Assembly (NCBI GenBank): GCA_937928595.1
Contig: CALGJV010000003.1
Span: forward strand, 1 to 64,000
DNA length: 64,000 bases
Direction: 5' to 3'
Source of the DNA: an uncultured Phycisphaerae bacterium
GTDB taxonomy: Bacteria; Planctomycetota; Phycisphaerae; UBA1845; Fen-1342
Position 1 is the stretch's first letter, and the number at the start of each line of letters is the position of its first letter. The notes below the pieces were generated by a model. The model was not told the DNA's origin. It saw only the letters and a list, made by a program, of their open reading frames with translations, and did not search any database. The translations under genes and the position numbers were made by a program. This document shows, piece by piece, positions 6,313-24,476 of the stretch.

Positions 6313-7680
6313 ATGGCGTTGGGACGGCGTGGCGGCGCGCGGCAGGAAGAGCTGTGGATACCGACGGCGGCGATGGCGCGGGGGCCGGGGCATTTGTTCT
6401 ACGACAAGCTGAATGAGCTGCTGGCGGAAGCGGGCTTTGATCGCTGGGTGGAGGAGCGTTGCCGGCCGTACTACGCGGAGCAGGGCCGGCCGGGGATTCC
6501 GCCGGGGGTGTACTTCCGGATGCTGCTGATCGGGTACTTCGAGGGGCTGGAGAGCCAGCGGGGGATCGCCGGGCGCTGCGCGGACTCGAGTTCGCTGAAG
6601 CGTTTTCTGGGTTTCGGGCTGACGGAGACGACGCCGGACCATTCGTCGCTGACGAACATCCGCAAGCGGCTGCCGCTGGAAGTGCACGAGGAGGTCTTCG
6701 CGTTCGTGCTGGGGATCGCGCAGCTCAAGAAGCTGCTGAAGGGTCAGGTGGTCGGCGTGGACGCGACGCTGCTGGAGGCCAACGCGGCCCTGAAGAGCAT
6801 TGTGCGGAAGGACACGGGCGAGGATTACCGGCAGTATCTGCGGCGGCTGGCGCAAGAGGCGGGGATCGCAGACGCGAGCGACGACGACCTGAAGAAGTTT
6901 GATCAGAAGCGCAGGGGCAAGAAGCTCTCGAACGCCGACTGGGCGTCGCCAACGGAGCCGGATGGCCGGATCGCGAAGCTGAAGGATGGGACCACGCACA
7001 TCGCCTACAAGGCCGAACACGCGGTAGACCTGGACAGCGAGCTGCTGCTGGCGGCGACGGTGCAGCCGGGGGACAGCGGCGATCCGGACAGCCTGCCGCA
7101 GACGCTGGTGGCGGCGCAGACGAGCCTGATCCGGGCGGGCAGCGACGCCGAAGTGCGGGAACTGGCGACGGACAGTGGCTACCACCGCAATGCGACGCTG
7201 GCCCAATGTGCCGCGTGGGGAATTCGCACGTACATCAGCGAGAAGGATGCGTCGCAGAAGCGGGTGTGGACCGACAAGCCGGCGGAGCAGGAGCGGGCCT
7301 TCCGCAACAACCGGTGGCGGATTCGCGGGCGACGCGGCCGGCGACTGCAACGCCGGAGGCGGGTGCTGTGCGAACGCAGCTTCGCGCACACCTGCGAGAC
7401 CGGCGGCGGCCGACGGAGTTGGCTGCGGGGATTGGTGAATGTCGCCAAACGCTACGTGATTCACGCGGCAGCGTACAACCTGGGGGTGATCCTGCGGAAG
7501 CTGTTCGGGATCGGCACGCCGCGGAGCCTCCCGGGCCGGGCCGCAGCGGCCTGCGCGACGCTTCTGGCCACCCTCTGGGCCCTGTATCACCGGCTCACAA
7601 CCCGCACCACGGACCCGCGCGATCGGAACCCGATCCCAACGCCAATCACCCCGAGCCCGTCCCGACTCGCCGCCGCGTAG
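6313..7680 (+). CDS. IS1182-family transposase
   Basis: This 455-residue transposase has the family's N-terminal helix-turn-helix region (residues about 30-110, including VYFRMLLIGYFEGL and the segment DHSSLTNIRKRL). The DDE catalytic domain follows: VGVDATLLEANAA carries the first Asp, LATDSGYH the second, and CERSFAHTCE near residue 360 the Glu. A purine-rich ribosome-binding site (AAGGAGG) precedes the ATG. The stop lies just inside the right inverted repeat. No frameshift is evident, so the copy may be functional. The C-terminal 50 residues are an Arg/Pro/Thr-rich tail. Confidence 0.9.
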   Translation: MALGRRGGARQEELWIPTAAMARGPGHLFYDKLNELLAEAGFDRWVEERCRPYYAEQGRPGIPPGVYFRMLLIGYFEGLESQRGIAGRCADSSSLKRFLGFGLTETTPDHSSLTNIRKRLPLEVHEEVFAFVLGIAQLKKLLKGQVVGVDATLLEANAALKSIVRKDTGEDYRQYLRRLAQEAGIADASDDDLKKFDQKRRGKKLSNADWASPTEPDGRIAKLKDGTTHIAYKAEHAVDLDSELLLAATVQPGDSGDPDSLPQTLVAAQTSLIRAGSDAEVRELATDSGYHRNATLAQCAAWGIRTYISEKDASQKRVWTDKPAEQERAFRNNRWRIRGRRGRRLQRRRRVLCERSFAHTCETGGGRRSWLRGLVNVAKRYVIHAAAYNLGVILRKLFGIGTPRSLPGRAAAACATLLATLWALYHRLTTRTTDPRDRNPIPTPITPSPSRLAAA

Positions 7681-7708: not shown

Positions 7709-9150
7709 ACGGCATCTTGGCCGAGGAGACCGCGCCGGGCGTGGTCGCGCTGACGGCCACCGGCGACCACATCCTGAACAACACGTCGTTCGGCTTCTTC
7801 GCGACGGGCCCGACGATCCAGATGGCCGAGTACAACGACTGGGGTTCGGGCGAAGGGCCGTTCAACGCCGCCGGCACGTACGAGGTCGCGTCCTACGACT
7901 GCGGCGCGCCGACGGTGGATGACATGCTCAACATCGCACCGCTCGGCGGGTTGGGCAACGCGGCCTCGGAGAGCGTGGACTACTGCCCCTGGACCGTCGG
8001 GGCGCTGTGCACGCTGACGACGGCCGACACCTGCTACAAGGCCGGCGACACCGTGACCGTGGACCTCGGCCTGACCGGCGCGACGGAGAACATCACCGGC
8101 GGCCAGTGGTGGATCGAGTTCGACGCCACCTACTTGACTTACGTCGGTGCGGCCGGTCAGGCGCCGTGGGACGGCTACACGGTCGTCAACCCCGGCGCCT
8201 GGGCGTATCCGCCCAACGTCAAGTTCATCCAGGTGGGTGACTTGGTCGCGCCGCTCGGCGCGCTGTCCGGCCCGAGCCGCAGCTTACGTTCACGGCCAAC
8301 GCGGCGGTGGACGCCTGCGACGTCGCGGAGCTGGTGCGCTTCACGAACCCGCTGCCGGACGCGATGCCGACGCGGCTGGCCGGCGAGATCACCGAGGCGA
8401 TTTATCCGGGTCTGCACGATCTCGCGCCGATCACGATCGACAACACGGCCCCGGTGGCGGCGATCAGTGTGGTCGGTGCGGACGTGGGCGGCGCGTGCAC
8501 GGCCCTGGTGACTTTCAGCGGCGCGGTCACCGATAACTGCGGGATCCAGGCCGGCGATGTCGGCGTGGCCGTGGTGCTGACCACCGGCAACGCGGCGCTC
8601 GGCGTGCCCACCATCACCAAGACCCAGACCGACGCGAAGACGGTCACGATCACGGGCAGCGTCGCGGTTTCGGCGCTGACGGGCTGCCCCGCCACGGTCC
8701 AGGTGACCGTGACCGCCACCGATTGCGGCGGAAACGCGGCTGTGTCGGCCATTGACACGGGCGACGTCAACGACGTGACGCCGCCGGTCATCACCGGTTG
8801 CCCGGCGAACATCTCGGTGCCGGCGGACGCGGGCTACTGCTCGGCCGCGGTGACCTGGACGCCGCCGACGGCGAGCGACAACTGCTCGGTGGCGAGCTTC
8901 ACCTCAACGTACAACTCGGGCGACACGTTCCCGATCGGCACGACAACCGTCACGTACACTGCCATGGATCCGTGCGGCAACACGACGCCGTGCACCTTCA
9001 CGGTGGAGGTCCGGGCGGAGACCGAGTTCAAGGTGAACATCGAGCTCCGCGCTGCGGTCTCGTCGTATCCGTTCACGCGGTGCATCACGTTCGAGTTCGA
9101 TCCGGGCAACGTGACCGTCTCGCAGGTGGTCTCGTCCGTCGCCGGTCGGG
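7709..9150 (+). pseudogene. HYR-domain surface/secreted protein, truncated and frameshifted
   Basis: This is a remnant of a large Cys-rich extracellular protein. The first frame starts directly at the IS1182 end with no start codon of its own and runs to about 8280 (aromatic, acidic secreted-protein composition). The homologous reading then continues in another frame from about 8283 (LTFTANAAVDACDVAELV), showing a frameshift. From about 8765 a HYR repeat is clear (PPVITGCPANISVPADAG, then SDNCSVASFTST, and MDPCGNTTPCTFTVEV). After about 9130 the reading loses all resemblance to the protein, so the C-terminal anchor or sorting region also appears lost. With 5' truncation, an internal frameshift and 3' truncation it cannot make the original product. 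Confidence 0.75.
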
Positions 9151-9152
9151 CG

Positions 9153-9194
9153 GGGCCCGGCGGCACTTCCGTGCCTCGCCGGGCCCATTTTTTT
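9153..9194 (+). terminator. Intrinsic transcription terminator
   Basis: A perfect 10-bp GC stem (GGGCCCGGCG at 9153-9162 pairing with 9177-9186) encloses a 14-nt loop. It is followed by A and seven T residues. It ends transcription coming from the surface-protein remnant and isolates the signalling operon that begins at 9481. Confidence 0.85.
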
Positions 9195-9480
9195 CGGCGG
9201 AGTCTGCCGGTCAAACGCCAGAGTGCAAGCGGTTCGCGGCTCCGGCCGGCCGGGCGCTTCGTCCGAAGCGGGTCGCCGCGGCCTCGCGGTGCGGCGTCCC
9301 GGGCGACTCCCGTTTCCGGCAAAGCGGCAGGCCGCTGCGCGCGACGCCGATAATACGCTCCGTGTGACGGCCGGGCGCGCGGCCGGTCGCGGCGGGCCCG
9401 AAACCCTTCTTCAAGTCCGCGGAACCCGTCACCGATGCGCCCCGTGGAGAACTCCGTCCCTGCGGGAGTGCGGTCGTACC

Positions 9481-11013
9481 ATGTCCGCGCAAGAGACGCC
9501 GTCATCGCCGCGCCCGGCCACCGGGCCGCTGCAACGCCTGTGGTCCGGCGCGCTGCCCGAGGTGCTGAGCGCGGGCTGCCTCGCCGTGCTGCTCGCCGCG
9601 GTCGGCGCGCTGTACCTGCTCACGGATGTTGCGTGGGAGGCCGCCGCCCCGGGGCGGGGCCTGCCGGACGCTCTGCGGTGGCGCTGGGGACTCGTGACGG
9701 TCGGGGCCGTGCTCGTGATCGCCTTCCTGTACCGGCGGCTGCGCCGGCAAGCCCGACCGCTGGCCGCCGTGCAGCGGAACCTCGAGCAACTCGCCGCGGG
9801 AGTCGAACGGGACCTCGCGACGCTCGCGCTGAGCGATGCCTTGGGACAGGTGGCCCAGGGGTGGAACCGGCTGATCGGTCAACTGGGCGAGGCGCAGCGG
9901 CAGTTGCGGACGCTGTCGGCCGGGCCGACACCCGAGAACGTGCTCGCGCGGTTCGAAAGCGCCGGGTTCCGGCGGGTGCTCGACCGGCTGCCGTTCGGCG
10001 TGTTGTGCGTGGATGCGCGGCACACGCTGCGGTACGTGAACGGCGCCGCGGCGGTCTGGCTGGGGCGTCCGGCGGCCGAACTCGTCGGGCTGCCGGCGGC
10101 GCAGGTGATCGACAACGAGGCCGTCCGGCAGGCGCTGCTGGCGGTGCGGACGCGGGCCAGCAGCCTGAGCGTCGATCACACGCAGCAGGACGGGCAGCAC
10201 GAGACGACGCTGCGGTTCCGGGTGCTGCCGCCGGCGGACGGGGCGCCGGGCGGCGACGTGCTGGTGACCATCGAGGACATCGGCGCGCTGCGTGAGACGG
10301 AGCGGGCCCGGGACCACTTTCTCTACCACGTCACGCACGAGCTGCGGACGCCGCTCACCAACATCGCCGCGTACGCCGAGACGCTCACGAAACCGGAGTT
10401 CGAGGACGAGCAGACCCGCAAGGAGTGCTACAACGTCATCGTCAGCGAGACCCGCCGCCTGTCGCGGCTGGTGGAGGACATCCTCAGCATCTCGCAGCTC
10501 GAGGTGGGCACCGCGCGGCTGAACCCCGGCGAGGTGGACCTCGCCCGGCTCCTGCGGCAGATGGTGCAGGACAACCTTGGCGCCGCCGACGAGAAGCAGA
10601 TCGACCTGACGCTGACGCTGCCGCCGAAGGTGCCGAAGCTCCGCGGCGACAAGCAGAGGCTCTCGGTGCTGGTCAACAACCTGGTCGGCAACGCGCTCAA
10701 GTACACCCCCCGCGGCGGCCAGGTGCAGGTCGTGCTCGACGTGACGGAGCAGGCCGTCCGGATCGTGGTCCGCGACAACGGCATCGGCATCAGCCCGGCC
10801 GACCAGGCCCGCGTGTTCGAGAAGTTCTACCGGGCCACGGACGACGCCGTGCAGAGCGTCACCGGCACCGGGCTGGGCCTGGCCATCGCGCGCGAGGTGG
10901 CCCGGCTGCACGGCGGTGACATCACCCTCACGAGCATACCGCGGCAGGGGTCGACGTTCACCGTGGAGTTGCCGCTCACCACCGGTGAGTCGGCGGAGGT
11001 GGCGCGCCGATGA
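9481..11013 (+). CDS. Membrane sensor histidine kinase with PAS domain
   Basis: This 510-residue sensor has two membrane segments (about residues 27-50 and 69-85) flanking only a short outside loop. A linker or HAMP-like helix, a PAS domain (about 165-270), the dimerisation and phosphoacceptor box with His286 (VTHELRTPLTNI) and the ATPase domain follow. The ATPase domain has the N box (NNLVGNALKY), G1 (DNGIGIS), F (VFEKFYR) and G2 (GTGLGLAI) motifs. All key residues are present. The ATG at 9481 gives the first N-terminal helix. Its stop overlaps the next gene by 4 nt, so it heads a translationally coupled run with the response regulator. The tiny outside loop suggests it senses the membrane or cytoplasmic signals through the PAS domain. 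Confidence 0.92.
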   Translation: MSAQETPSSPRPATGPLQRLWSGALPEVLSAGCLAVLLAAVGALYLLTDVAWEAAAPGRGLPDALRWRWGLVTVGAVLVIAFLYRRLRRQARPLAAVQRNLEQLAAGVERDLATLALSDALGQVAQGWNRLIGQLGEAQRQLRTLSAGPTPENVLARFESAGFRRVLDRLPFGVLCVDARHTLRYVNGAAAVWLGRPAAELVGLPAAQVIDNEAVRQALLAVRTRASSLSVDHTQQDGQHETTLRFRVLPPADGAPGGDVLVTIEDIGALRETERARDHFLYHVTHELRTPLTNIAAYAETLTKPEFEDEQTRKECYNVIVSETRRLSRLVEDILSISQLEVGTARLNPGEVDLARLLRQMVQDNLGAADEKQIDLTLTLPPKVPKLRGDKQRLSVLVNNLVGNALKYTPRGGQVQVVLDVTEQAVRIVVRDNGIGISPADQARVFEKFYRATDDAVQSVTGTGLGLAIAREVARLHGGDITLTSIPRQGSTFTVELPLTTGESAEVARR

Positions 11014-11411
11014 GCCGAATTCTCGTGGCCGAAGACGATCCGCACATCCTGCGGCTCATCAGCCTGTGGCTGACCCGGCAGGGTCACACCGTCGTGGAGG
11101 CCCGCAACGGGATCGCCGCGCGGGAGCTCGCGCAGGCCGAGCCCGTGGACGTGCTGGTGTGCGATGTGAACATGCCCGGGCTGGACGGCCTGTCGCTGAT
11201 CGAGGCCCTGCGGTCGACCGCGCACGTCCGGCGCGGCGTGGTCGTGCTCACCAATCGCTGGGATCACGGCGATCTGCGCGATCGCCTCGCGGCCGAGGGC
11301 ATTCAGGTGCTGCCCAAGCCGTTCAGTCCGACGCGCCTGTCCGAAGTCGTGGCGGCCTTGCTGGCCGCGGTATCGGTCGAACCGGGGGGCCGGGAGCCCG
11401 GGGCAACATGA
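11010..11411 (+). CDS. Single-domain response regulator
   Basis: This 133-residue protein is only a receiver domain. The acidic pair is Asp9/Asp10, the phosphoacceptor is Asp52 (VCDVNMPGLDG), the switch Thr is Thr81 and the conserved Lys is Lys103 (LPKPF). There is no output domain, so it must act by protein contact. It overlaps the kinase gene upstream and the HD-GYP gene downstream, each by 4 nt (ATGA), which makes the kinase its likely phosphodonor and the HD-GYP protein a candidate partner. Confidence 0.92.
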   Translation: MSRILVAEDDPHILRLISLWLTRQGHTVVEARNGIAARELAQAEPVDVLVCDVNMPGLDGLSLIEALRSTAHVRRGVVVLTNRWDHGDLRDRLAAEGIQVLPKPFSPTRLSEVVAALLAAVSVEPGGREPGAT

Positions 11412-12928
11412 GCAGTTCGATTGCCCCTACCAACGGCGGCCGACTCTTCGGCGACCTGCTGCGCGGGCTGTCGGGCCCGTCCGGGCCGGAAAGCCGCTCG
11501 CTCGGCCTGGTCGGACCGGGCGTGCATCCGCCCCAGCCGCCGGAGCACTGCCTGCGGCTGTGCCTGGGCGGCTCGGTCGACGCCATCCCGCGGCGGGGCT
11601 GTGCGCTCCTGGCCGGCGCCGCCCGGGGCGAAATCCCGGCGGATGCCCTGCGCAACGGCCGTTGCCCGGCCGGCTGCGCCGTGGCCGCTCGATCGGTGCG
11701 GGTGAACGGCGAGCCTGCCGTGCTGTTGACGGTCAACGGGGAACTGCCGGGCCCGGCGGTCGCCGGCGCGGACCTGCTGGGGCAACTGGACCGCGCGCAG
11801 GAGCTCGTCCAGCGTGTTGACGAGCTGCTCGCGGAGAACGCCGGCTTCGCGAACGAGGTGCTCCAGAACTACGAGCAACTCAACCTGATCTTCGACCTGA
11901 CGCGCGAAATCGCCCAGATCACGGAATCGCGCGCGATCGAGCGGCTACTGATGCAGCGACTGGCCCGGTTGCTCGTCGGCCACGGCGCCGGGGTGTGCAG
12001 CGCGGAGGGCGAATGGCGGGCGGCGGTGGCCGACGAGTCGGCCGCGGTCGCGCCGGCCGCGCTGGAGGCCATCGTCGCGCAAGTCAAGGCGCAGCGGCAG
12101 GTGCAGGTGGGCACGGCCGGGAACGCGGCCGTGATTGCGGGGCCGCTGGCGCGGCTGGACGGGCGCGTGGACGTGGCGTGCGTGCTGCGGGCGCCGGGCG
12201 CGGCGCCGTTCGGCGCGGGTGACATGCTTTTGCTGGAATCGCTGCTCACCTTCGGCGGGCAGATCCTGAGCAACAACACCCTGCACGAGCGGCTGCGGCA
12301 GATGTCGCTGGAGGTCGTGCGGGCGCTCGTGGCGGCCATCGACAAGAAGGATCACTACACGAGCGGCCATTCCGAACGCGGCGGGTTCCTCACGCGCCTG
12401 ACGGCGCAGGAACTGGGGTGCAGCCCCGCGGAGCAGCAGACCATGGAGTGGGCCGGGCTGCTGCACGACGTGGGCAAGATCGGGGTGCCGGAGGAGATCC
12501 TCTGCAAGCCGGGCAAGCTCACGCCCGAGGAGTTCGAGGTCATCAAGCAGCACCCGCGCATGGGCTACGAGATTCTGCGTCCCATCGCCAGTTTCGAGCT
12601 CGTGCTCGACGGCGTGCTCTACCACCACGAGTACCCGGACGGCACCGGCTACCCGGCAGGACTGCGCGGCGACGCGATCCCGCTGGTGGCCCGGATCATC
12701 CACGTGGTCGACACGTTCGACGCGCTGACCTCGACGCGCTCGTACCGCCAGGCCTACCCGATCGAGCGGGCGCTGGAGGTCATTCGCGCCGAAATGGGTA
12801 CGCGCATCGACCCCGAGGCCGCGGAGGCGTTCTTCCGGGCCTTCGAGCGTTACCGCCGCGAGCAGCCCGAGGACTTCCACGTCCGGTTCGGCGCACTCCG
12901 CGGCGGCACGGTGGAGGCGTCGCCATGA
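11408..12928 (+). CDS. HD-GYP c-di-GMP phosphodiesterase with Cys-rich sensor and GAF regions
   Basis: This 506-residue soluble protein starts with a Cys-rich module (Cys48, 52, 65, 86, 90; CPAGC then VRVNGEPAVLLTVNG), which resembles a PocR-like sensor. A coiled coil (about 120-165), a GAF-like domain (about 165-290) and a complete HD-GYP domain (about 300-485) follow. Catalytic metal ligands are visible: GHSER (His321), HDVGK (His353, Asp354, Lys357), HPRMG (His382), HHEYPDGTGYP (His406, His407 and the GYP) and VVDTFDALTS (Asp435). It should hydrolyse c-di-GMP to pGpG or GMP. It overlaps both neighbours by 4 nt, linking it to the two-component pair upstream and the degenerate GGDEF protein downstream. 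Confidence 0.9.
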   Translation: MSSSIAPTNGGRLFGDLLRGLSGPSGPESRSLGLVGPGVHPPQPPEHCLRLCLGGSVDAIPRRGCALLAGAARGEIPADALRNGRCPAGCAVAARSVRVNGEPAVLLTVNGELPGPAVAGADLLGQLDRAQELVQRVDELLAENAGFANEVLQNYEQLNLIFDLTREIAQITESRAIERLLMQRLARLLVGHGAGVCSAEGEWRAAVADESAAVAPAALEAIVAQVKAQRQVQVGTAGNAAVIAGPLARLDGRVDVACVLRAPGAAPFGAGDMLLLESLLTFGGQILSNNTLHERLRQMSLEVVRALVAAIDKKDHYTSGHSERGGFLTRLTAQELGCSPAEQQTMEWAGLLHDVGKIGVPEEILCKPGKLTPEEFEVIKQHPRMGYEILRPIASFELVLDGVLYHHEYPDGTGYPAGLRGDAIPLVARIIHVVDTFDALTSTRSYRQAYPIERALEVIRAEMGTRIDPEAAEAFFRAFERYRREQPEDFHVRFGALRGGTVEASP

Positions 12929-14211
12929 CGCTTCCGCCGCTGCGAGCTCCGGTGCTGGCGCAGGGGGCGGAACCGTTCGCGGGCGGCGGCCTCGACGCGG
13001 GGCCGACGGTCGGCCGGTTGCTGAGCGAGCTGGCCTGGAATGCCGCGGGCGATGGGCATGTGTGGGCGGTTTTGGCCCTCGCGGCGCTGACCCTGGTCGC
13101 GATGCACTGGGTCGGGCGACGCCGGGCGGCCCCGCCGCTGGCCGCACCGGCCCCGCCGCGCGGCCGGCCGTTGGCGTCGCCGTTGTCGACCCTGCCCGGC
13201 GTCTTCACGCCGGGCCCGGCCGAACGCCTGATCGCTGGCTTCCGGCAGTGGCTGGCTGAGCAGGACGGGAACGCCGATCTGTGGCGGCCGTTCGAACAGT
13301 TCCTGCGCGAGAATCTCAACAATCTGCTGGGTGCGACGCGCATCCGGTGCTTTCACGTGCGGTCGGACGCTGAGACGCTGACGCCGCTCGTGGGCGGCGC
13401 GGAGGCGGGCGGAGTCCCGCCGCCCAGCGCCCGCGCCGGTCTGCTCGGGCACGTCGTGACCTCCGGGCGCCCCTACGCCGTCGGCGACGTGCGGCAGGGG
13501 CCGCTGGTGGCCCAGCTCGCGGCCCAAACGGAGGACCGCTGGGCGTGGGTCTGGCCGGTGTGCTTCAAGGGCCGCACGCAGGGGGTGATCGCGGTGGGGG
13601 AGGGCGCGGGGGTCGGGGCGTTCTCGGCCGCGGCTCAGGAGGCACTGGGGCCGGCGCTCTCGCTCTGCTGGGAGTGTGTCGCGGCGCGCGTCGCGCTGGC
13701 GGAGGCGGGGCGGAAGGACAAAGCCTCCGGGGTCCTGACGCGGGCCGACTTCTTCGATCAGGCCGGCCGGACGATGGCCGAGTCGCGCGCGTTGGGAGAG
13801 CCGCTCGTCGCGGTGGTGCTGGCGCTGGAGGGGCTGCGGCGACTGGACGACTCCGGGCGGTGGCGGGAGCGCGACGAGCTGGTCGAGCGCACGGGCCGGG
13901 CGTTGGTCGAGCGGGTGCGGCGGGACGACGTGGTGGGTCGGTTTGCCGACGATCGCTTCGTCCTGCTGCTCCGGCGGCTGGACAGCGCGCTCGGGCGGCT
14001 GATCGCCGAAAAGCTCGTTCAAGTGATTCAGGGGCTGGCCGACGCGACCGACGGTGTGCATGTCCGGGCGGGGCTGGCGGGCAGCGGCCTGGCGCGGCCG
14101 GAGCTGGACGCGCTGCTGGCGACCGCGTTCGCGGCCGCGGACCGGGCGCGGCAGAGCGGGGTGGCGCTGGCCGGGGACCTGCCGGTGTCGGATCGGGAGG
14201 ACGCGGCGTGA
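12925..14211 (+). CDS. Membrane GAF plus degenerate GGDEF protein (probable c-di-GMP receptor)
   Basis: This 428-residue protein has one membrane helix (about residues 46-63), a GAF domain (about 120-255) and a GGDEF-fold domain (about 265-420). The active-site signature is ADDRF (341-345) instead of GGDEF, and the catalytic acidic residue is Arg, so cyclase activity is not expected. The RxxD inhibitory-site motif is kept exactly five residues upstream (RRDD, 332-335), which suggests it can still bind c-di-GMP. This order of membrane helix, GAF and degenerate GGDEF with an intact I-site resembles the receptor PelD; that comparison is by architecture only. It overlaps both the HD-GYP gene and the STAS gene by 4 nt. 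Confidence 0.82.
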   Translation: MTLPPLRAPVLAQGAEPFAGGGLDAGPTVGRLLSELAWNAAGDGHVWAVLALAALTLVAMHWVGRRRAAPPLAAPAPPRGRPLASPLSTLPGVFTPGPAERLIAGFRQWLAEQDGNADLWRPFEQFLRENLNNLLGATRIRCFHVRSDAETLTPLVGGAEAGGVPPPSARAGLLGHVVTSGRPYAVGDVRQGPLVAQLAAQTEDRWAWVWPVCFKGRTQGVIAVGEGAGVGAFSAAAQEALGPALSLCWECVAARVALAEAGRKDKASGVLTRADFFDQAGRTMAESRALGEPLVAVVLALEGLRRLDDSGRWRERDELVERTGRALVERVRRDDVVGRFADDRFVLLLRRLDSALGRLIAEKLVQVIQGLADATDGVHVRAGLAGSGLARPELDALLATAFAAADRARQSGVALAGDLPVSDREDAA

Positions 14212-14543
14212 AGATTACGACCGAAAGTCACGGCGCCGTGGCGGTGGTGGTGCCGCACGGCCCACTGGTCGGCGAGGAGACGCTGGATCTGAAGCGGGCA
14301 CTGGCGGAGTCGGCAGTGCTGAAGCGGCGAATCGTTGTGGACATGACGGACGTGCCGTACCTCGACAGCCGCGGCATCGAGCTGCTGCTGGAGCAGTGCG
14401 GCGGGCAGGTGCCGGCGCACCAGCGTCCGCGGCTGGCGAGCCTGGCGGAGACGTGCGCCGAGGCGTTGGAGCTGACGGACGTGCTGCCGCGGCTCGAGGT
14501 GTTCGACACGGTGGACAACGCGCTGCGCGGCTTCCAGCACTGA
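14208..14543 (+). CDS. STAS-domain protein (anti-anti-sigma type)
   Basis: This 111-residue protein is a single STAS domain. The loop MTDVPYLDSRGIELLLEQC carries Asp-Ser at the position phosphorylated in SpoIIAA-type antagonists. A GTG start is chosen because it overlaps the upstream stop (GTGA) and removes any gap. No anti-sigma kinase or sigma factor gene is adjacent. In this setting the protein could instead recruit or regulate the secretion ATPase that starts 4 nt downstream. The partner is therefore unknown. Confidence 0.85.
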   Translation: MKITTESHGAVAVVVPHGPLVGEETLDLKRALAESAVLKRRIVVDMTDVPYLDSRGIELLLEQCGGQVPAHQRPRLASLAETCAEALELTDVLPRLEVFDTVDNALRGFQH

Positions 14544-14546
14544 CGG

Positions 14547-16316
14547 ATGCGTGGAGTACGGACGGTGCAACGGCGGAGCAAGCTCGGGCAACTGCTGCTG
14601 GACGAGGGCCTCGTCAGCGAGGCCGACCTGCGGCGCGCGCTGGAGTCGGCGCAGCGGGACAACCGGCGGCTGGGCGAGGAGCTGATCGCGCTGGGTTTGC
14701 TGTCGCCCAAGGCGATGCTCAGCGCGCTGGCGCGGCAACTGGGCGTGAAGGCCTGCCAGCTGCGGCACGGCCTGATCGACCCCGCGGTCGCGCACCTGCT
14801 GGAGCGCGAGGAGGCGGCGCGGCTGAAAGCGCTGCCGATGTTCAAAGTGGGGGACACGCTGACGGTGGCGATGGCCGAGCCGCAGTCGCTGCCGACGATC
14901 GACCGTCTGGCGGCCCTGACCGGCTGCCGCATCAACCCGGTGCTGGCGCTGGAGTCGAACATCGCGGAGTTCCAGGAGAAGTACCTGGGCGACGCGGTGG
15001 ACATCGACTCGTTCCTCGTCAACCTGACCGAGAGCGAGGTGCACGTCGTCGAGCGCGAGACAGTGGACGAGGACGCGCCCCAGGAAATCGGACGGATGGT
15101 CGAGGGCAGCCCGATCATCAACCTCGTCAACCTCGCGATCATGACGGCCGTGCGCGACGGGGCCAGCGACATCCACATCGAGCCCACCAAGCAGGCGACG
15201 CGGATCCGCTACCGCATCGACGGGAACCTGCGCGAGCTCATGTCGGCGCCCCCGGGCCTGCACGCGGCGATCGTGTCGCGCGTCAAGGTCATCGGCAAGA
15301 TGGACATCGCCGAGCGGCGCCTGCCGCAGGAAGGCCGCGTGCACGTCGTGGCGGAGGGCCGCGAGATCGACTTGCGGGTCTCGTCGATGCCGACGCTGCT
15401 GGGCGAGAAGATCGTGCTGCGGATCCTCGACAAGGCCAATCTGAACGTCGCGCTCGAGAAGCTGGGCCTCACGCCCGCGCAGCTCGCGGCCTTCCGACGC
15501 ATCTTCCAGCGCGCGCACGGCATCGCGCTGGTGACCGGGCCGACCGGCAGCGGCAAGACCACGACGCTGTACTCGGTCCTCGACCTGCTGGCGGCGCCGG
15601 AGCGGAACATCGTGACGATCGAGGATCCGGTCGAGTACCAGCTCACCGGCATCAACCAGGTCCAGGTCAGCGACGTGGTGGGGCTCTCGTTCGCGCGGGC
15701 GCTCCGCTCGATCCTGCGGCAGGACCCGGACGTCATCATGGTGGGCGAGATCCGCGACACGGAGACGGCCCGCGTCGCGATCCAGGCGGCCCTCACCGGC
15801 CACCTGGTCCTTTCGACGCTGCATACGAACAACGCCCCGGGCGCGTTCATCCGCCTGGCCGACATGGGCATCGAGCGCTACCTGCTGGCGTCCGCCTGCA
15901 ACGGCGTGATCGCGCAGCGTTTGGCGCGCACGATCTGCCCGTACTGCCGGATTTCGTACTATCCGCCCGCCAGCGCCCTGGCCGACGCGGGCTGGGCGAG
16001 TCAGCCCGAGCGGGTCTTCTACAAGGGCGAGGGCTGCAAGCAGTGCCACGACAGCGGCTACCGCGGGCGCGCCGGCATCTTCGAGGTGCTCGAGGTGACG
16101 GAGGACGTGCGGGCCGCCGTTCAACTGGCCGACAACGAGGATGGAATCAAGGCGGTCGCGCGGCAGCACGGCTGGCGCCCGCTGCGCGAGGAGGGCCTGC
16201 GCCTCGTGGAGGAAGAACGGTCCACGCTCGAGGAAGTCCTGCGCGTGACCCACGCCGAAACCGAAACCCGGATCCGGGCGGAGCAGCCGGCGCTACCGGC
16301 GGCCGCCCTGGTCTAG
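14547..16316 (+). CDS. gspE: Type II secretion/type IV pilus assembly ATPase (GspE/PilB)
   Basis: This 589-residue cytoplasmic hexameric ATPase powers pseudopilus assembly. Residues 12-66 form a MshEN-like region with two repeats (KLGQLLLDEGLVSEADL and RLGEELIALGLLSPKAM), a fold that binds c-di-GMP in some family members. The catalytic part has Walker A (GPTGSGKTTT, 331-340), an Asp box (TIEDPVEYQ), Walker B (DPDVIMVGEIRD), a His box (STLHTNNAPG) and the zinc tetracysteine (CPYC and CKQC). All appear intact. It begins 3 nt after the STAS stop and is followed at 16 nt by gspF, tying the signalling genes to the machine. Confidence 0.95.
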   Translation: MRGVRTVQRRSKLGQLLLDEGLVSEADLRRALESAQRDNRRLGEELIALGLLSPKAMLSALARQLGVKACQLRHGLIDPAVAHLLEREEAARLKALPMFKVGDTLTVAMAEPQSLPTIDRLAALTGCRINPVLALESNIAEFQEKYLGDAVDIDSFLVNLTESEVHVVERETVDEDAPQEIGRMVEGSPIINLVNLAIMTAVRDGASDIHIEPTKQATRIRYRIDGNLRELMSAPPGLHAAIVSRVKVIGKMDIAERRLPQEGRVHVVAEGREIDLRVSSMPTLLGEKIVLRILDKANLNVALEKLGLTPAQLAAFRRIFQRAHGIALVTGPTGSGKTTTLYSVLDLLAAPERNIVTIEDPVEYQLTGINQVQVSDVVGLSFARALRSILRQDPDVIMVGEIRDTETARVAIQAALTGHLVLSTLHTNNAPGAFIRLADMGIERYLLASACNGVIAQRLARTICPYCRISYYPPASALADAGWASQPERVFYKGEGCKQCHDSGYRGRAGIFEVLEVTEDVRAAVQLADNEDGIKAVARQHGWRPLREEGLRLVEEERSTLEEVLRVTHAETETRIRAEQPALPAAALV

Positions 16317-16332: not shown

Positions 16333-17547
16333 ATGCTGTTCACGTACGAGGCCCTGCGGACGGACGGAACGGCCGTCGTCGACCGGCTCGAGGCCGGCGA
16401 CCGGCTGGCCGCGGCCGGTGCGCTGCGCGAGCGCGGGCTGGTCGTGCTGCGGCTCGAAGCGACCACGGAGGATGTGCCCGCGGCCGGCCCGGGCTGGAAC
16501 GTGCTGAGCCGCCGCATCACCCACCGCGACCGCATCCTCTTCACGCGCCAGCTCAAGATGCTGCTGGAGGCCGGAGCGCCGCTGGTGCCGGCGCTCGAAG
16601 CGGCCGAGGAGCAGACCCTCAAGCCGGCCATGCGACAACTGCTGCGGCGGCTGCGCGTCCGGGTCGAGCAGGGTGACAGCCTGGCGCACGCGCTCGAGGA
16701 CGAGGCCGAGTTGTTCGACCCCGTTTTTCGCAGCATGGTGGCGACGGGCGAAGCCACGGCGACACTGCCGCAGGTGTTCGGGCGGTTGGCCGCGCTCGCG
16801 CAGCAGCAGGAGCAGGCCCGCAAGCAGGTGCTCGGGGCGCTGCTGTATCCGGCGATCCTGAGCGTCCTGATGCTCGGCGTCATCGCGGTGCTGCTGCTGT
16901 TCGTTGTGCCGCGATTCCGCACGCTGTTTCTGAGCCTGCGGTCCCCGCTGCCGGTGACCACGGAGCTGCTCTTCGCCGCGTCGGAGTTCGCGACGCGGCA
17001 CGGACTGTGGCTCCTCGGGCTGCTGGCGGCCGTGGTGACCGGCGGCGTGCTGGCGCTGCGGCTGCCGGCGACGCGGGCCTGGCTGGATGACCTCCAGTTG
17101 CGGCTGCCGCTGCTCGGTCCGCTGGTCCGACGCCTGCTGTTCGCCCGCATCCTGCGGGTCTGGGCGGCCATGCTCCGTTCCCACGTGCCCGTGTTGGATG
17201 CGCTCCGGCAATCGCGGGCGGCCGTGCGAAACGCGGCGTGTCTCCAGGCGCTGGCCCAGGTCGAGGAGGCGGTGACCTCCGGCGGCCGCCTGGGGCCGTC
17301 CCTGGCCTCCACGCGGCTGGCCGACGCGGTGATCGTGGCTGCGCTGCGGACCGGCGAGGAAAACGGCCGGCTGGCCGAGGCGACGGAATTCGTGTCGGGC
17401 TGGCTGGACGAGGACAACGCGGCGACGATCCACCAGCTCACGCGGCTGGCGGAGCCCCTGCTGCTGGCCGTGATGGGTGTCGTGGTGGGTTTCGTGGCGA
17501 TGTCGTTGTTCGTGCCGTTGTTCGATCTGGCATCGGCGGCCGGCTAG
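16333..17547 (+). CDS. gspF: Type II secretion/type IV pilus inner-membrane platform protein (GspF/PilC)
   Basis: This 404-residue polytopic protein has the two tandem T2SSF domains of the family (about residues 65-190 and 265-390) and three membrane segments (near 170-195, 220-240 and 375-400). The typical RDRILFTRQLKMLLEAG and FARILRVWAAMLRSHVP segments start the two repeats. It forms the inner-membrane platform turned by the GspE ATPase. An N-terminal 60-residue region precedes the first repeat, as in longer family members. Confidence 0.94.
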   Translation: MLFTYEALRTDGTAVVDRLEAGDRLAAAGALRERGLVVLRLEATTEDVPAAGPGWNVLSRRITHRDRILFTRQLKMLLEAGAPLVPALEAAEEQTLKPAMRQLLRRLRVRVEQGDSLAHALEDEAELFDPVFRSMVATGEATATLPQVFGRLAALAQQQEQARKQVLGALLYPAILSVLMLGVIAVLLLFVVPRFRTLFLSLRSPLPVTTELLFAASEFATRHGLWLLGLLAAVVTGGVLALRLPATRAWLDDLQLRLPLLGPLVRRLLFARILRVWAAMLRSHVPVLDALRQSRAAVRNAACLQALAQVEEAVTSGGRLGPSLASTRLADAVIVAALRTGEENGRLAEATEFVSGWLDEDNAATIHQLTRLAEPLLLAVMGVVVGFVAMSLFVPLFDLASAAG

Positions 17548-17577: not shown

Positions 17578-18678
17578 ATGTGGTGGCGTGACCGACACTC
17601 GGCGATCACGTTCGACGTGGGGGCCGCGGGGCTGCGCGCCGTGCAGTTCCGCCGGCGCGGCGCCCGCACGGAGCTCTGCGACGCGTTCCAGTTCGAGCTG
17701 CCGGCCGGGGGCGGAGCCTCGCCGCCCGACGGCGTGGACCTGGCGACGATCGCGCACGCCGTGGAACAGGGGCACTTCAGCGGCCGTGATGTGGCGCTGG
17801 TTCTCTCGCCGCCGGACGTGCAGTTCGTGCCCGTGCGCGTGCCGCCGCAGGTGCTGGCGCAGCCGCCCGAGCGATTCCAGCAGGCCGTGCAGTTCGAGGT
17901 GTCGCAGGCGGCTCGGCGCGGCAGCGAGGAGATGGAGCTGCGCGCCTGGCCGTTGCCCATGGCCGGGCCCCAACAGCCGAACGTGATCGCCGTCACGCTG
18001 GCGGCCGCGCAGGCCGCTGCGTGGTGCGCCGCGGCGGAGCAGCAGCAGTTGACGCTGAGTCGCATCGACGTGGCGCCTTGTGCGCTGGTCGCGCTGGCCG
18101 CGCGGACGTGGCCGCCGGACGACACCGAGTCCTGGGGGGTGCTGGACCTGGGACGACGACACACGACGCTCACGCTCGTGGTCGGCCGTACACCCGCCTA
18201 CATTCGCACGCTGGGCGTGTGCTCGCACGACTGGACGCAGCGGCTGGCCGCGGCGTTCGAGGTGCCGCTCGACGTGGCCGAGGAACTGAAGCGACGCCAC
18301 GGCATCCGGGCCCCCGAGCGGGGCGTGCGGGCCGGCGGCGGCGGAGCGGGCCGGCTCGTGGGCGATGAGCTGGCCGGCGCCTGCGCGAGCGTGTTGCGGG
18401 AGGCACTGCGGGGCCTCTCGGCGGAAGTGGGCCGCTGCTTCGCTTACCTTCAGCAAGCGTTTCCGGAGCACGCCCCGCGGCGGCTCGTGCTGAGCGGCGG
18501 CGGGGCCGGTCTGCCGGGCCTGCCGGAGCTGCTGCAGGGCGAGCTCGAGATTCCCGTCTGTCTGCTGGCGCCGGAGCCGCCCGCGGGCCCCGGGGCGACC
18601 CTCCTCGCGGACCGGCGGATCGGCGTGCGGAACGCCGCGGCCGTGGGGGCGGCGTTGCTCGATCTGGAGGCGGCATGA
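17578..18678 (+). CDS. pilM: PilM-like actin-fold pilus assembly protein
   Basis: This 366-residue cytoplasmic protein has the PilM/FtsA-like actin fold. An N-terminal phosphate-1 motif is visible (ITFDVGAAGLRAVQF, residues 8-22), a second nucleotide motif near residue 185 (WGVLDLGRRHTTLTLV), and an adenosine-type motif near 300 (LVLSGGGAGLPGLPELL). PilM binds the cytoplasmic tail of PilN and links the ATPase to the periplasmic ring. The ATG is 30 nt after gspF, and the stop overlaps pilN by 4 nt. Sequence identity with PilM is visibly low, so the call rests on motifs and gene order. Confidence 0.82.
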   Translation: MWWRDRHSAITFDVGAAGLRAVQFRRRGARTELCDAFQFELPAGGGASPPDGVDLATIAHAVEQGHFSGRDVALVLSPPDVQFVPVRVPPQVLAQPPERFQQAVQFEVSQAARRGSEEMELRAWPLPMAGPQQPNVIAVTLAAAQAAAWCAAAEQQQLTLSRIDVAPCALVALAARTWPPDDTESWGVLDLGRRHTTLTLVVGRTPAYIRTLGVCSHDWTQRLAAAFEVPLDVAEELKRRHGIRAPERGVRAGGGGAGRLVGDELAGACASVLREALRGLSAEVGRCFAYLQQAFPEHAPRRLVLSGGGAGLPGLPELLQGELEIPVCLLAPEPPAGPGATLLADRRIGVRNAAAVGAALLDLEAA

Positions 18679-19292
18679 CCTGCGCGGTGAACCTGGTTCC
18701 GGTCGCCTATCGCCTCAGCCGGGCTCGCGCGCGGCGCCGGCGCGCCTGGACCTTCGTCTGCGCGGCGACGGGCGTGCTCGTGCTGCTCGGTGCCGCGGTA
18801 ACACAGACGGCCCGCACGCTGGTTGTGCAACTGCGCGGGCGTGTGGCCGGGCTCGAGCAGCAACGCCTCGACGTGCAGCGGCAGATCGTCGCGCTCGCTG
18901 CTCAGCGCACCACGCAGTTGGCCGAGCTGGAACGCGTGGCCGCCGCGCGCCGGCCGCAGCCGTGGCCCCGGCGCTTCGTCGCGCTCACCGAGACGCTGCC
19001 GGACGGCGTGTTCCTGACGGAGATCGAGATTCGGCCCGCGGCGGGCGGCGTGCCCACGCCCAACCTCCGCACGGCGGTCCCGCCCGCGACGGACACGGAG
19101 CGTCTCGTGCAGCAGGTCCGCGTGCTCGGGTACGCCCGCGGGCACGACGACCTGCTGCAATTCGTCAACGCGCTGCGCGAGCAGCCGGGTTGGCGGCACG
19201 TGGAGCTGGCCCGGTCTCGCATTGAGCCGTGGCAGGGTGCCGACATCGTGGCGTTTGAGCTGGCCGGTCACGCCGCGGAGGACGAGCCATGA
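18675..19292 (+). CDS. pilN: PilN-like alignment subunit
   Basis: This 205-residue bitopic membrane protein starts with MTCAVNLVPVAYR, the short cytoplasmic tail that in PilN docks into PilM (NLLP-type motif). A basic stretch, one membrane helix (about 30-50), a coiled coil (about 50-85) and a periplasmic ferredoxin-like domain (about 90-200, FLTEIEIRPAAG and so on) follow. It overlaps pilM upstream and pilO downstream by 4 nt each, matching the usual pilM-N-O-P order. Confidence 0.85.
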   Translation: MTCAVNLVPVAYRLSRARARRRRAWTFVCAATGVLVLLGAAVTQTARTLVVQLRGRVAGLEQQRLDVQRQIVALAAQRTTQLAELERVAAARRPQPWPRRFVALTETLPDGVFLTEIEIRPAAGGVPTPNLRTAVPPATDTERLVQQVRVLGYARGHDDLLQFVNALREQPGWRHVELARSRIEPWQGADIVAFELAGHAAEDEP

Positions 19293-19876
19293 TCCTGACC
19301 CGGCGGCCCGTGACGCTGTATGACGTTGACGGCCTGGCCCTGTTGGGGCTGGCCGGCTTGCTCGCCCTGGCGGGCTGGGTGGTCGTCTGGCCGATGCACC
19401 GCTCCTGGAACGAGTATCGAGCGCTGGCGGTGCGACGGGCGGAAGCCGACCGCAACCTTCAGACCGAGCGGCAGTCGCTGGCGGTCTTCACCGAACGGCT
19501 GGCGGAACTGAAGAACTCCGTCAGCGCCGCGGCGGAGGGCGTGCCCGGCACGAGCGAGTTCCCATCGCTGCTGCGGCGTCTGACGACGGCCGCCCAGGCC
19601 GCAGCTCTGACCGTCCAGACCATGACGCCGGCGCCGCTGGCGTACGCGCGGGACTACGCCCTCGCGGACGTGCGGATCGAGGGGCGCGGGCGCGGGCTGG
19701 ACTGTCTCCGATTCCTGGAACGCCTGACCCGGGACAACCCCTACCAGTCGCTGCGCGAGTGCCGGTTGACGCGGCCCGCGACGGCCCCGGACGCCGAGTG
19801 TCACTTCGCGTGGACGCTGCGGTTCTACCTGCTGCCGGAGACGCCCGTCGCGGCGGGTGGGGGAGGGCGACCCTGA
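19289..19876 (+). CDS. pilO: PilO-like alignment subunit
   Basis: This 195-residue bitopic protein has one membrane helix (about 15-36), a coiled coil (about 40-75) and a periplasmic domain. Features such as SEFPSLLRRLTTAAQAAAL and the strand pattern at 100-180 fit the PilO/GspM fold. It should pair with PilN in the periplasmic ring. Its stop overlaps the next start by one base (TGATG). Confidence 0.82.
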   Translation: MILTRRPVTLYDVDGLALLGLAGLLALAGWVVVWPMHRSWNEYRALAVRRAEADRNLQTERQSLAVFTERLAELKNSVSAAAEGVPGTSEFPSLLRRLTTAAQAAALTVQTMTPAPLAYARDYALADVRIEGRGRGLDCLRFLERLTRDNPYQSLRECRLTRPATAPDAECHFAWTLRFYLLPETPVAAGGGGRP

Positions 19877-20412
19877 TGCGCCTTCAACGACGACATCGCC
19901 TCCTGCTCGGCGCGCTGGTACTGGCCGTGACGATCTGGCTGCTCGATCGGCTCTCGGGCCGGACCGGGCCGCAGCCCGCGCAGGCCAAGGGTAACGGAAC
20001 CGCCCCGGCGCCGACGACGTCGCTGGCCTGGGACGACGCCGACGCCCTCCTCCGCCGGCTCGCCGCCCTCCGCGCGGACGGCGACGAGCGCCGGCTGCCC
20101 GAGACGGCCCGGGACCCTTTCCAGCCGTCGGCGCTGCTGGCACAACTGCTCCCGGCGACGGAAGTGCCCATGCCTTCCGGCGCGGAATCGCCACCCGCGG
20201 ACACACCGGGCAATTTCGGCGCTCGGCACCGGCTGGCGGGCGTCGTGCTCGGGGCGGAACCGCTGGCTGTCGTGGACGATGTGGTGGTCGGGCTGGGGGC
20301 GGTTCTGGACGGGCACACGCTGGTGGCCGTCGAACGGGACGCAGTCGTCTTCGAGGAAACCGCCACGGGCGTGCGGGTGCGGCTCACGCTGCCCGGGCCG
20401 GGCGTGCCCTGA
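19876..20412 (+). CDS. PilP/GspC-like periplasmic connector protein
   Basis: This 178-residue protein has one N-terminal membrane segment (about 6-24), a disordered linker, the DPFQPS motif (about residue 76) and a small C-terminal beta domain (about 112-172, HRLAGVVLGAEPLAVVDDVV). This order is shared by PilP and GspC, which link the inner-membrane ring to the secretin. The GspC-like homology domain is the better visual match for the C-terminus, while the operon position is that of pilP. The start at 19876 is set by the TGATG overlap with pilO. Confidence 0.72.
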   Translation: MRLQRRHRLLLGALVLAVTIWLLDRLSGRTGPQPAQAKGNGTAPAPTTSLAWDDADALLRRLAALRADGDERRLPETARDPFQPSALLAQLLPATEVPMPSGAESPPADTPGNFGARHRLAGVVLGAEPLAVVDDVVVGLGAVLDGHTLVAVERDAVVFEETATGVRVRLTLPGPGVP

Positions 20413-20593: not shown

Positions 20594-21097
20594 ATGAAGC
20601 GGCGTAACAACCGGGTTGCGTTCTCGCTCGTTGAGCTCGTGGTCGTCATCGTGATCATCGGGATTCTCGCGGCCATCGCGATCCCGCGGTTGAGTCGCGG
20701 ATCGACCGGCGCGAGCCAGGCGGCCTTGAGCGCCAACCTCGCGACGATCCGGAATGCGATCAATCTGTACGCGACGGAGCACAATGGGGCGTTCCCGGGA
20801 CCGGATGAAGCCGGGTTCGTGAACAAGCTGACCAAGTACACGGACCTCAGCGGCACCGTCTCGGCGACGAAGACGGCGACGGCCAAGTACGGTCCGTACC
20901 TGCAGGCCATCCCGCCGTGCCCGGTGGGCGAGAACGCTGGCAAGACGACCGCGAACAAAATCCTGATTTCGTCCACGAGCCCGCCGACCCCGGACCCGAC
21001 CGGGGGCGAGGGTTGGGTGTACAACCCTACGACCGGCGAGTTCCTGGCCAACACGACGCAGACCGACGACAGCGGCAAGGCGTTCAACACGTACTAA
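20594..21097 (+). CDS. gspG: Major pseudopilin (GspG-like)
   Basis: This 167-residue prepilin has a short basic leader (MKRRNNRVA), cleavage before Phe10 and the hydrophobic helix FSLVELVVVIVIIGILAAIA with the conserved Glu at mature position 5. The soluble domain is of GspG size and contains a short loop with Asp/Thr/Gly-rich sequence near the C-terminus. The residue before the cleavage point is Ala rather than the usual Gly. AGGAG lies 9 nt before the ATG. It is the last plus-strand gene before a strong terminator and the likely main subunit of the pseudopilus. Confidence 0.9.
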   Translation: MKRRNNRVAFSLVELVVVIVIIGILAAIAIPRLSRGSTGASQAALSANLATIRNAINLYATEHNGAFPGPDEAGFVNKLTKYTDLSGTVSATKTATAKYGPYLQAIPPCPVGENAGKTTANKILISSTSPPTPDPTGGEGWVYNPTTGEFLANTTQTDDSGKAFNTY

Positions 21098-21255: not shown

Positions 21256-22356
21256 TCAGCCTGGCCGCGCGGCCGCGGCCAGAAGCCGGGCGGCCACGGC
21301 GTTGTCCGGCTCCAGGGCGCGCAGGCGCGCCGTCCAGAAGCGGACTCGCTCGATGTCGCCGGCGCGGTAGGCCAGAGCGGCCGCGAGTTCGGCGGCCGGC
21401 ACGAGCTGCGGCGCCAACGTCGCCGCCCGGGCGGCCACGTCGGCCCCCGCGGCGTAGTCGTGCTGCGCGGCGCGGCAGCGGGCCAGGAGCAGCAGGGCGG
21501 GCACATGCTCGGGGTGGTTCCGCAGAAGAGTCTGCACCTGCAACTGCGCGGCGGCCGTCCGGCCCACGGCCAGGAGGCACTCCGCCAGCGGCACGCGCAG
21601 CGCCTCGACCTCCGGGTTGTCCGCCGCGACGAGGCTCTCGAGCACGGGAATCGCTTCGTCGCAGGCCCCGGCGCGGAACAGCGCGAGGGCCAGCCGCTCG
21701 CGCAAGCCTGCGTCCGCGTCGGACCGCCCGGCGACGCGCCGCCAGGCCGCGGCCGCCGCGGACCAGTCCCCACACTGCTCGTGGCACTCGGCGAGAGCGG
21801 CCTGGAACGCGTTCGTCCAGCCGAGCTCGGACTGGCGTTGAACCAGGAACGCCAAGGCGCCGGTGGCGTCGCCCAGTTGCAGCCGCACCTGGGCTGCCGC
21901 CACGGCGTAGGTCACGTCGTCAGGCCGGGCGGCCGCGGCCTGTTCGAAGGCCGCCAGCGCCTCCTCCCAGCGGGCCTGCTGCTGCCGGGCGATACCGAGC
22001 AGGTAGGCGGCTTCGGGGCGGTCGGCATCGTCCAGCGGCGCACTCTCGAGCAGCGCGGCCGCCTCGGCCGTCCGGTCCCCTGCCAGCAGCAGCCGCGCCT
22101 CGAGCACCGCCAGGTCCCGCCGCTGCGGGTCCAGGCGGCGGGCCTCCGCCAGCTCCGCGGCGGCGGCCTGAACGTGGCCGGCGTTGAGCTGGTCGGCGGC
22201 CAGCTGCGCCTTCACTTGCGCACGAACCGTGTTCCAGCGGGCACCGGCTTCCTGGCGGGCGATGGCCTGCGGAGACCGGCAGCCGGACAGCCACACGACG
22301 GCGAGGACCGCGACGGTGAGACCGCCGTGCTCGGCGCGGATGCGGAGCGACGTCAT
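21256..22356 (-). CDS. TPR-repeat lipoprotein, possible secretin pilotin
   Basis: This 366-residue protein has a lipoprotein signal (hydrophobic stretch ending WLSGC, Cys26) and about nine tetratricopeptide-like helix pairs through the rest of its length. It should be anchored in a membrane and act by protein contact. Its ATG overlaps the secretin stop by 4 nt, so the two are made together. TPR lipoproteins of the PilF/PilW type pilot secretins to the outer membrane, and that role is inferred here from anchoring, repeats and coupling. The family match itself is not specific. Confidence 0.75.
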   Translation of the reverse strand: MTSLRIRAEHGGLTVAVLAVVWLSGCRSPQAIARQEAGARWNTVRAQVKAQLAADQLNAGHVQAAAAELAEARRLDPQRRDLAVLEARLLLAGDRTAEAAALLESAPLDDADRPEAAYLLGIARQQQARWEEALAAFEQAAAARPDDVTYAVAAAQVRLQLGDATGALAFLVQRQSELGWTNAFQAALAECHEQCGDWSAAAAAWRRVAGRSDADAGLRERLALALFRAGACDEAIPVLESLVAADNPEVEALRVPLAECLLAVGRTAAAQLQVQTLLRNHPEHVPALLLLARCRAAQHDYAAGADVAARAATLAPQLVPAAELAAALAYRAGDIERVRFWTARLRALEPDNAVAARLLAAAARPG

Positions 22357-24146: not shown

Positions 24147-24476
24147 CAACGCACGCTCCCTGGGCTCGCGGTACGCGGGACCGGCTGGCGGCGCCGCCAC
24201 CGCCCGGCCCGCTTCCCGCCACTCCCATCGGCGCGCGGTTATCGGCGGGTTCACCACAGCCCGCGGGCTTGGGCGGCGGCGCCCGCTTGTTACCGGCCCC
24301 CCGGCAACAATTGCCGCTTGGCCGAACCGCCCGGCGGGCCGTGGCGCCGCGGGGTTATCGCGCCGTCGGACGCGGCCGAAGCGGCGGCAAGGCCGGGCCG
24401 ATGACAGACGGGAGCGCGGCGGCGCGTCGCTCGCGGGAGTGGCCGTGTACGGGTCCGCCGCGCACGGAGTGCCGGG
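24147..24476. other. 330-bp divergent intergenic region between secretin and minor pseudopilins
   Basis: It must hold the promoters for both the secretin pair (minus) and the four-gene pseudopilin operon (plus). I see no convincing -35/-10 pair, sigma-54 motif or palindrome. The open frames across it are Arg/Pro-rich and not believable as protein. Confidence 0.4.

Follow-up and report, generated by a model that had tools for sequence, protein, structure and literature searches.

A 64,000-nucleotide stretch of DNA from an uncultured Phycisphaerae bacterium (assembly GCA_937928595.1, contig CALGJV010000003.1, positions 1 to 64,000; hereafter the window) carries, on its forward strand at 9481-16316, six consecutive genes encoding a sensor histidine kinase (HK), a single-domain response regulator (RR), an HD-GYP protein, a membrane protein with a degenerate GGDEF domain (GGD), a STAS protein and a PilB/GspE-type assembly ATPase (PilB). 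We propose, with middling confidence and from sequence, that these genes form a planctomycete cassette in which GGD, as a receptor for cyclic dimeric guanosine monophosphate (c-di-GMP), acts together with STAS on PilB, while HD-GYP, kinase and receiver provide the input. Such a cassette would be ancient and would regulate the assembly ATPase of a pilus-like machine of the type IV pilus or type II secretion type. GGD, a putative former diguanylate cyclase, would read c-di-GMP at the membrane via its I-site, and the GGD/STAS pair, with STAS as a Ser-phosphorylation switch, would control PilB through presumed GGD-STAS and STAS-PilB contacts, by analogy with FimX in Pseudomonas and with the STAS partners that act on cyclases. 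The HD-GYP enzyme would lower c-di-GMP locally, near the GGD/STAS/PilB complex, and the membrane kinase and receiver would set the activity of HD-GYP or, as another candidate target, of GGD.

Within the window the six genes are separated by four 4-nucleotide overlaps and, going by the coordinates, one 3-nucleotide gap at the STAS/PilB junction. Gene boundaries and domain scans confirm what an earlier note had read from the letters of this DNA, namely these overlaps, this gap and a continuation of the run into gspF-pilMNO-P; its phrase 'fused by overlaps' holds for the genes, which do overlap, and not for the proteins, which are not fused. All comparative searches were made within Planctomycetota. 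At the level of the order, 114 genomes (Phycisphaerae relatives) were searched and 40 regions around GGD relatives were taken; strong GGD relatives occur in most families and, among these genomes, in none of family f8. By profiles built from the window genes, all six genes stand in the order HK-RR-HD-GYP-GGD-STAS-PilB in 35 of the 42 order-level loci with pilB. Four of the seven exceptions are incomplete at a contig end (L036, L048, L073 and L138) and three are true variants: L137 without GGD, L074 without HD-GYP and L151 without receiver and HD-GYP. Coupling is tightest between GGD and STAS, which overlap by exactly 4 nucleotides in 30/40 loci. An alignment search with close GGD members gave 19 named loci, the relatives being Phycisphaerae and Planctomycetota metagenome-assembled genomes; a search of genome contigs with the single GGD protein gave no match. 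Across a sample of the class, the GGD profile has strong matches (up to E 1e-57) in this order alone, and elsewhere it scores only generic GGDEF domains. The six-gene arrangement is far beyond chance and no local accident, and a strain-specific gene order was rejected, as the order is kept across the order-level loci. The earlier note had suggested looking for it in other Planctomycetota and would have given up its proposal had the order been peculiar to this strain; the order recurs in these 35 loci and in two genomes of another class, so that objection, one of the two which the note had named, falls away. Long open frames that seem to join GGD and HD-GYP (e.g. in L048 and L056) were rejected as fusions and are overlapping frames of high-GC DNA.

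Signalling proteins of the proposed cassette

GGD (12925-14211, forward strand) consists of one predicted membrane helix, a GAF domain (GAF_2) and a GGDEF domain with a weak match to its model; domain assignments here and below come from Pfam/NCBIfam scans of the window proteins. The GGDEF signature has become (A/S/D)(D/G)(D/S)RF, with ADDRF in the window: GG[DE]EF is found in 0/45 copies, the Glu of GG(D/E)EF is Arg (R344) in 41/44 and the glycines are lost too, leaving no copy with a diguanylate cyclase active site. The RxxD I-site is kept, with R332 in 40/45 and D335 in 43/45 copies, and is invariant in the 34-sequence alignment A1, so that GGD has the two marks of a degenerate GGDEF receptor, catalytic site lost and RxxD retained. 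The operonic cyclases of other classes are the reverse: GG[DE]EF is present in 19/19 STAS-pilB loci, yet RxxD in only 1/19. Retention of the I-site therefore tracks loss of catalysis, and this contrast argues for ligand binding by the dead protein. The pattern suggests that GGD is a catalytically dead cyclase with a predicted c-di-GMP site, which fits the earlier note's inference that the GAF/GGDEF protein reads c-di-GMP.

The AlphaFold2 model of GGD (mean predicted local distance difference test score, pLDDT, 83.1) has a membrane-length helix at residues 45-67 followed by the GAF and GGDEF domains, with high confidence over GAF-GGDEF. It matches the GGDEF structures 3i5c (Z 22.3, root-mean-square deviation (rmsd) 1.8, 158 aligned) and SiaD 7e6g (Z 21.6, rmsd 4.6, 196 aligned), and its Foldseek matches include the full GAF-GGDEF proteins Dcsbis and PelD. 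In the tree, dead GGD forms one clade (support 100) and the operonic active cyclases another (support 93); joining the two is not rejected (approximately unbiased test, p-AU 0.627), and dead GGD may descend from the operonic active cyclases, a descent with which the tree is compatible. Directly after the degenerate GGDEF hairpin, at window positions 13972-13983, lies a conserved RR(L/V)D outside the usual cyclase signature, of which R350 and D353 are invariant in alignment A1. Other forms of the protein occur elsewhere: at L141 (G120), HK-GGD-STAS-PilB has a divergently placed receiver and HD-GYP, and its GGD lacks both the catalytic site and RxxD (NxxA); at L054/L092 (G015 C159), a second HD-GYP-GGD pair, with the I-site Arg replaced by His, is followed directly by a pilin gene, with neither STAS nor pilB.

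The STAS protein (14208-14543, forward strand; Pfam STAS) carries its candidate switch residue, Ser54, in a DS motif. In SpoIIAA and RsbV the Ser at the equivalent position is the phospho-acceptor. Asp53-Ser54 is invariant in 43/43 order-level copies and also in a 30-member alignment spanning other orders, so that the protein combines a STAS fold with a phosphorylatable Ser in DS, the two features looked for in a phospho-switch.

The HD-GYP protein (11408-12928, forward strand) comprises a Cys-containing N-terminal domain, a GAF-like domain and the HD-GYP domain (HD_5). H321, H353, D354, H382, H406, H407 and D435, together with K357, are invariant in 42/42 copies; HD, HHExxDGxGYP and the metal ligands are present, with D411 of the DGxGYP stretch in 38/42. 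All ligands of PmGH and the D183/K225 equivalents are kept, except that the E185 position is occupied by Tyr317 (Tyr in 42/42). Apart from the E185 equivalent, the protein thus keeps the ligands needed for a phosphodiesterase, which agrees with the earlier assignment to the phosphodiesterase type. The best structure match of the model, well covered over residues 149-467 only, is PmGH (4mcw; Z 23.5, rmsd 5.2, 325 aligned). It also matches DvhD, a non-catalytic HD-GYP receptor (PMC13090378), which has neither the HD nor the HH residues, both of which the window protein keeps. In the N-terminal region (window 11549-11665), for which no Pfam family was found, a CxxxC...C...C pattern has Cys48, Cys65 and Cys86 invariant and Cys52 nearly so (11 sequences); a metal or redox sensor is possible. 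The two remaining input proteins, both on the forward strand, keep their phosphotransfer residues: HK (9481-11013; N-terminal hydrophobic segments, PAS, HisKA and HATPase_c) has the phospho-acceptor His286 invariant in 40/40 aligned copies, and RR (11010-11411), a receiver only, has Asp52 invariant in 41/41.

Several observations weigh against the proposed cassette as we have drawn it. No kinase or phosphatase for the STAS Ser lies within the operon; outside it, the same genome encodes one stand-alone RsbW-like kinase and six SpoIIE-type phosphatases as candidates. A subgroup with Tyr or Phe at the E185 position is predicted to be binuclear (PMC4159591), and since the window HD-GYP belongs with the Tyr subgroup, some doubt attaches to its substrate. 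Only about four lineages supply the active cyclases without RxxD, and the contrast with the dead GGD accordingly has few independent cases; the RxxD residues could be kept for folding instead, and R339, beside RxxD, does not vary in either the dead or the active forms. Finally, L074, L137, L139, L140 and L151 are without HD-GYP or GGD, which implies that the STAS-PilB pair can do without c-di-GMP input.

PilB and its STAS neighbour

PilB (14547-16316, forward strand) contains T2SSE and MshEN domains over cut-off and scores 54.1 bits with NF053729, the NCBIfam model of the MshE-type c-di-GMP motif (cut-off 38). The earlier note had counted the ATPase itself among the c-di-GMP readers; in its stronger form, with PilB as the receptor via MshEN and GGD as an accessory, we regard this as improbable. 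The two model matches speak for it, as does the fact that the LG and Gln ligands of both 24-residue motifs, each of which should end in Gln, are retained in many members of the window family. Against it, the motif-I ligand Gln is Ala in the window PilB itself, with RLG and Gln of motif II kept. Close same-family relatives keep the motif-I Gln, and motif I is usually intact among relatives. A canonical motif II is largely confined to family f1; f6/f7 have Arg or Lys in place of its Gln, other lineages read LLG...A or LLG...E, and most families have lost its Gln or Arg; the Gln-to-Arg change of one PilB group is also found in the non-binding PilF GSPII-A (PMC12002112). To judge by these residues, the case for c-di-GMP binding by the PilB MshEN domain is weak. 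What the earlier note described as a c-di-GMP-gated module is thus supported as far as gene order, HD-GYP ligands, GGD RxxD and STAS Ser are concerned, all of which are conserved, and is weak at the MshEN ligands.

Across the phylum the constant element is STAS-PilB, with HD-GYP, receiver and GGD each absent in some loci. A phylum-wide search with the STAS profile found pilB adjoining STAS in 30/30 of the best loci, an adjacency that is partly by construction inside the class, whose loci with this pairing supplied the profile, and independent outside it. A second, class-wide pilB lineage (about 44% identical to the window PilB) has HK-RR-HD-GYP-STAS-PilB(-PilT)-PilC without GGD (L142-L147, L150), and other orders have HK-STAS-PilB only (L139, L140). 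In other classes, G385 (L205) and G422 (L207) have HK-RR-HD-GYP-GGDEF-STAS-PilB, the cyclase being intact with RYGGEEF, and HK-RR-GGDEF-STAS-PilB or GGDEF-STAS-PilB is found in many f52 genomes. Given that STAS-PilB stays constant and the c-di-GMP genes come and go, the proximal switch may be STAS. The earlier note, which treated STAS as adding phospho-switch control, was right about the Ser, which is invariant, and missed the constancy of STAS-PilB, so that its add-on may have to be recast as the proximal switch. A wider version of our proposal, which we advance only tentatively, is a phylum-wide STAS-PilB unit in which a Ser partner switch acts directly on an assembly ATPase; in one order the operonic cyclase would have decayed into a c-di-GMP receptor that feeds the switch, opposed by the operonic HD-GYP, to give one secretion motor a self-contained circuit that writes, erases and reads the signal.

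The same distribution underlies the main rival to the cassette, namely that STAS phosphorylation gates PilB directly, with the c-di-GMP parts as lineage-specific tuning add-ons and GGD mainly as a membrane scaffold. STAS-PilB adjacency as the sole constant, the invariant DS motif and the HK-STAS-PilB loci with neither HD-GYP nor GGD (L139, L140, L172, L180, L182, L184-L186, L189 and L201) all favour it. We nevertheless consider it rather unlikely: it leaves the conservation of RxxD in GGD unexplained, STAS in these loci has no Ser kinase or phosphatase of its own alongside, and the kinase that is present is of the HisKA type with an invariant His. Signalling might also run the other way, from the pilus machine via PilB, STAS and GGD to HD-GYP and the kinase, reporting surface contact and adjusting cellular c-di-GMP. 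Gene content is compatible with either direction, and PilB reportedly acts in signalling in Myxococcus xanthus (PMC5544727); this direction is nonetheless decidedly improbable, as GGD is predicted to be unable to make c-di-GMP and the gene always adjoining pilB is STAS, not HD-GYP. Mere co-transcription, with no direct mechanistic link among the genes, is the least probable of the explanations and hardly credible, even though synteny alone is never proof of interaction: the order persists across classes and recurs on two pilB lineages that are paralogues within one genome (G133), whose two module versions (L139, L162) differ in that one has HD-GYP and receiver and the other lacks both, and the other pilB paralogues of the window's own genome have none of these signalling genes alongside.

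The machine genes and their surroundings

Downstream of PilB, on the forward strand, domain scans identified the PilC/GspF inner-membrane platform protein (16333-17547), a PilM-like protein (17578-18678), PilN (18675-19292) and PilO (19289-19876), followed by a PilP-like protein (19876-20412; no Pfam family, assigned from its position and its homologues at other loci) and a GspG-like (pseudo)pilin (20594-21097; domain scan and prepilin methylation motif). A secretin of the GspD/PilQ type (22353-24506) neighbours the operon on the opposite strand. Assembly ATPase, platform protein, PilMNO, pilin and secretin, the parts expected of a type IV pilus or type II secretion machine, are thus all present. 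A TPR gene and the secretin, both on the minus strand, and a GspH-like pilin flank the operon at 21259-24965 and probably belong to the same machine. PilT was found neither in the window operon nor in type A loci; in several type B loci a partial second match to the PilB model between PilB and PilC was read as PilT, and PilT-like genes located elsewhere in the window's own genome are possible partners of the machine. On the other side of the operon, a DDE transposase gene (6313-7680) lies immediately upstream of an apparently frameshifted cohesin/HYR gene (7717-9353), the end of which abuts the operon.

Comparison with known systems

Most of what is known about c-di-GMP acting on pilus ATPases, via FimX/PilZ or MshEN, concerns proteobacteria. 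The operon would offer a compact, testable system in a phylum hardly studied for this, with an input (HK-RR), an eraser (HD-GYP), a predicted dead-cyclase reader and a STAS switch beside the motor. Its natural comparison pairs, with an active cyclase in some classes and a putative dead receptor in another, may capture how an enzyme becomes a receptor inside a single operon. The operon further suggests that pilus motors can be among the targets of STAS partner switches. In the open-access literature we found no description of the operon, or of STAS paired with PilB in planctomycetes; analogues are known for each of the elements, and the combination and its phylum-wide conservation appear to be new.

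One parallel is FimX, which binds c-di-GMP via its EAL domain. In the type IV pili of Pseudomonas aeruginosa this degenerate-GGDEF protein senses c-di-GMP and stimulates the assembly ATPase PilB (PMC5595344), and here, too, a degenerate GGDEF protein would be linked to PilB. In contrast to FimX, GGD has no EAL domain in the Pfam scan, and hence no GGDEF-EAL layout; it is predicted to be membrane-anchored, consists of GAF-GGDEF only, keeps its I-site and is encoded next to STAS and pilB. In SiaC-SiaD, HsbA-HsbD and BgrV-BgrR, the phosphorylation state of a STAS or STAS-like protein governs its action on a GGDEF partner (PMC8457831). These systems likewise pair such a protein with a GGDEF protein, whereas here the GGDEF domain is predicted to be inactive, the next gene encodes a pilus ATPase and the operon has no kinase/phosphatase pair. 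Loss of catalysis with retention of RxxD is shared with PelD and with PopA, an I-site c-di-GMP receptor (PMC5052742), and PelD also combines membrane segment(s) with GAF and degenerate GGDEF domains; unlike these, GGD neighbours a pilus-type ATPase with STAS, and it has no PelD Pfam match and no pel genes nearby, its neighbours being pil genes. The c-di-GMP-binding ATPases MshE and PilF (PMC5013675, PMC11731258) share the N-terminal MshEN domain with PilB; in the window PilB, however, one ligand Gln is missing, and most of its relatives have a degraded motif II. Finally, PmGH (PMC4159591) has the GAF-HD-GYP layout and nearly all ligands of the window HD-GYP, which differs in its Tyr for E185 and in an extra N-terminal domain with conserved Cys.

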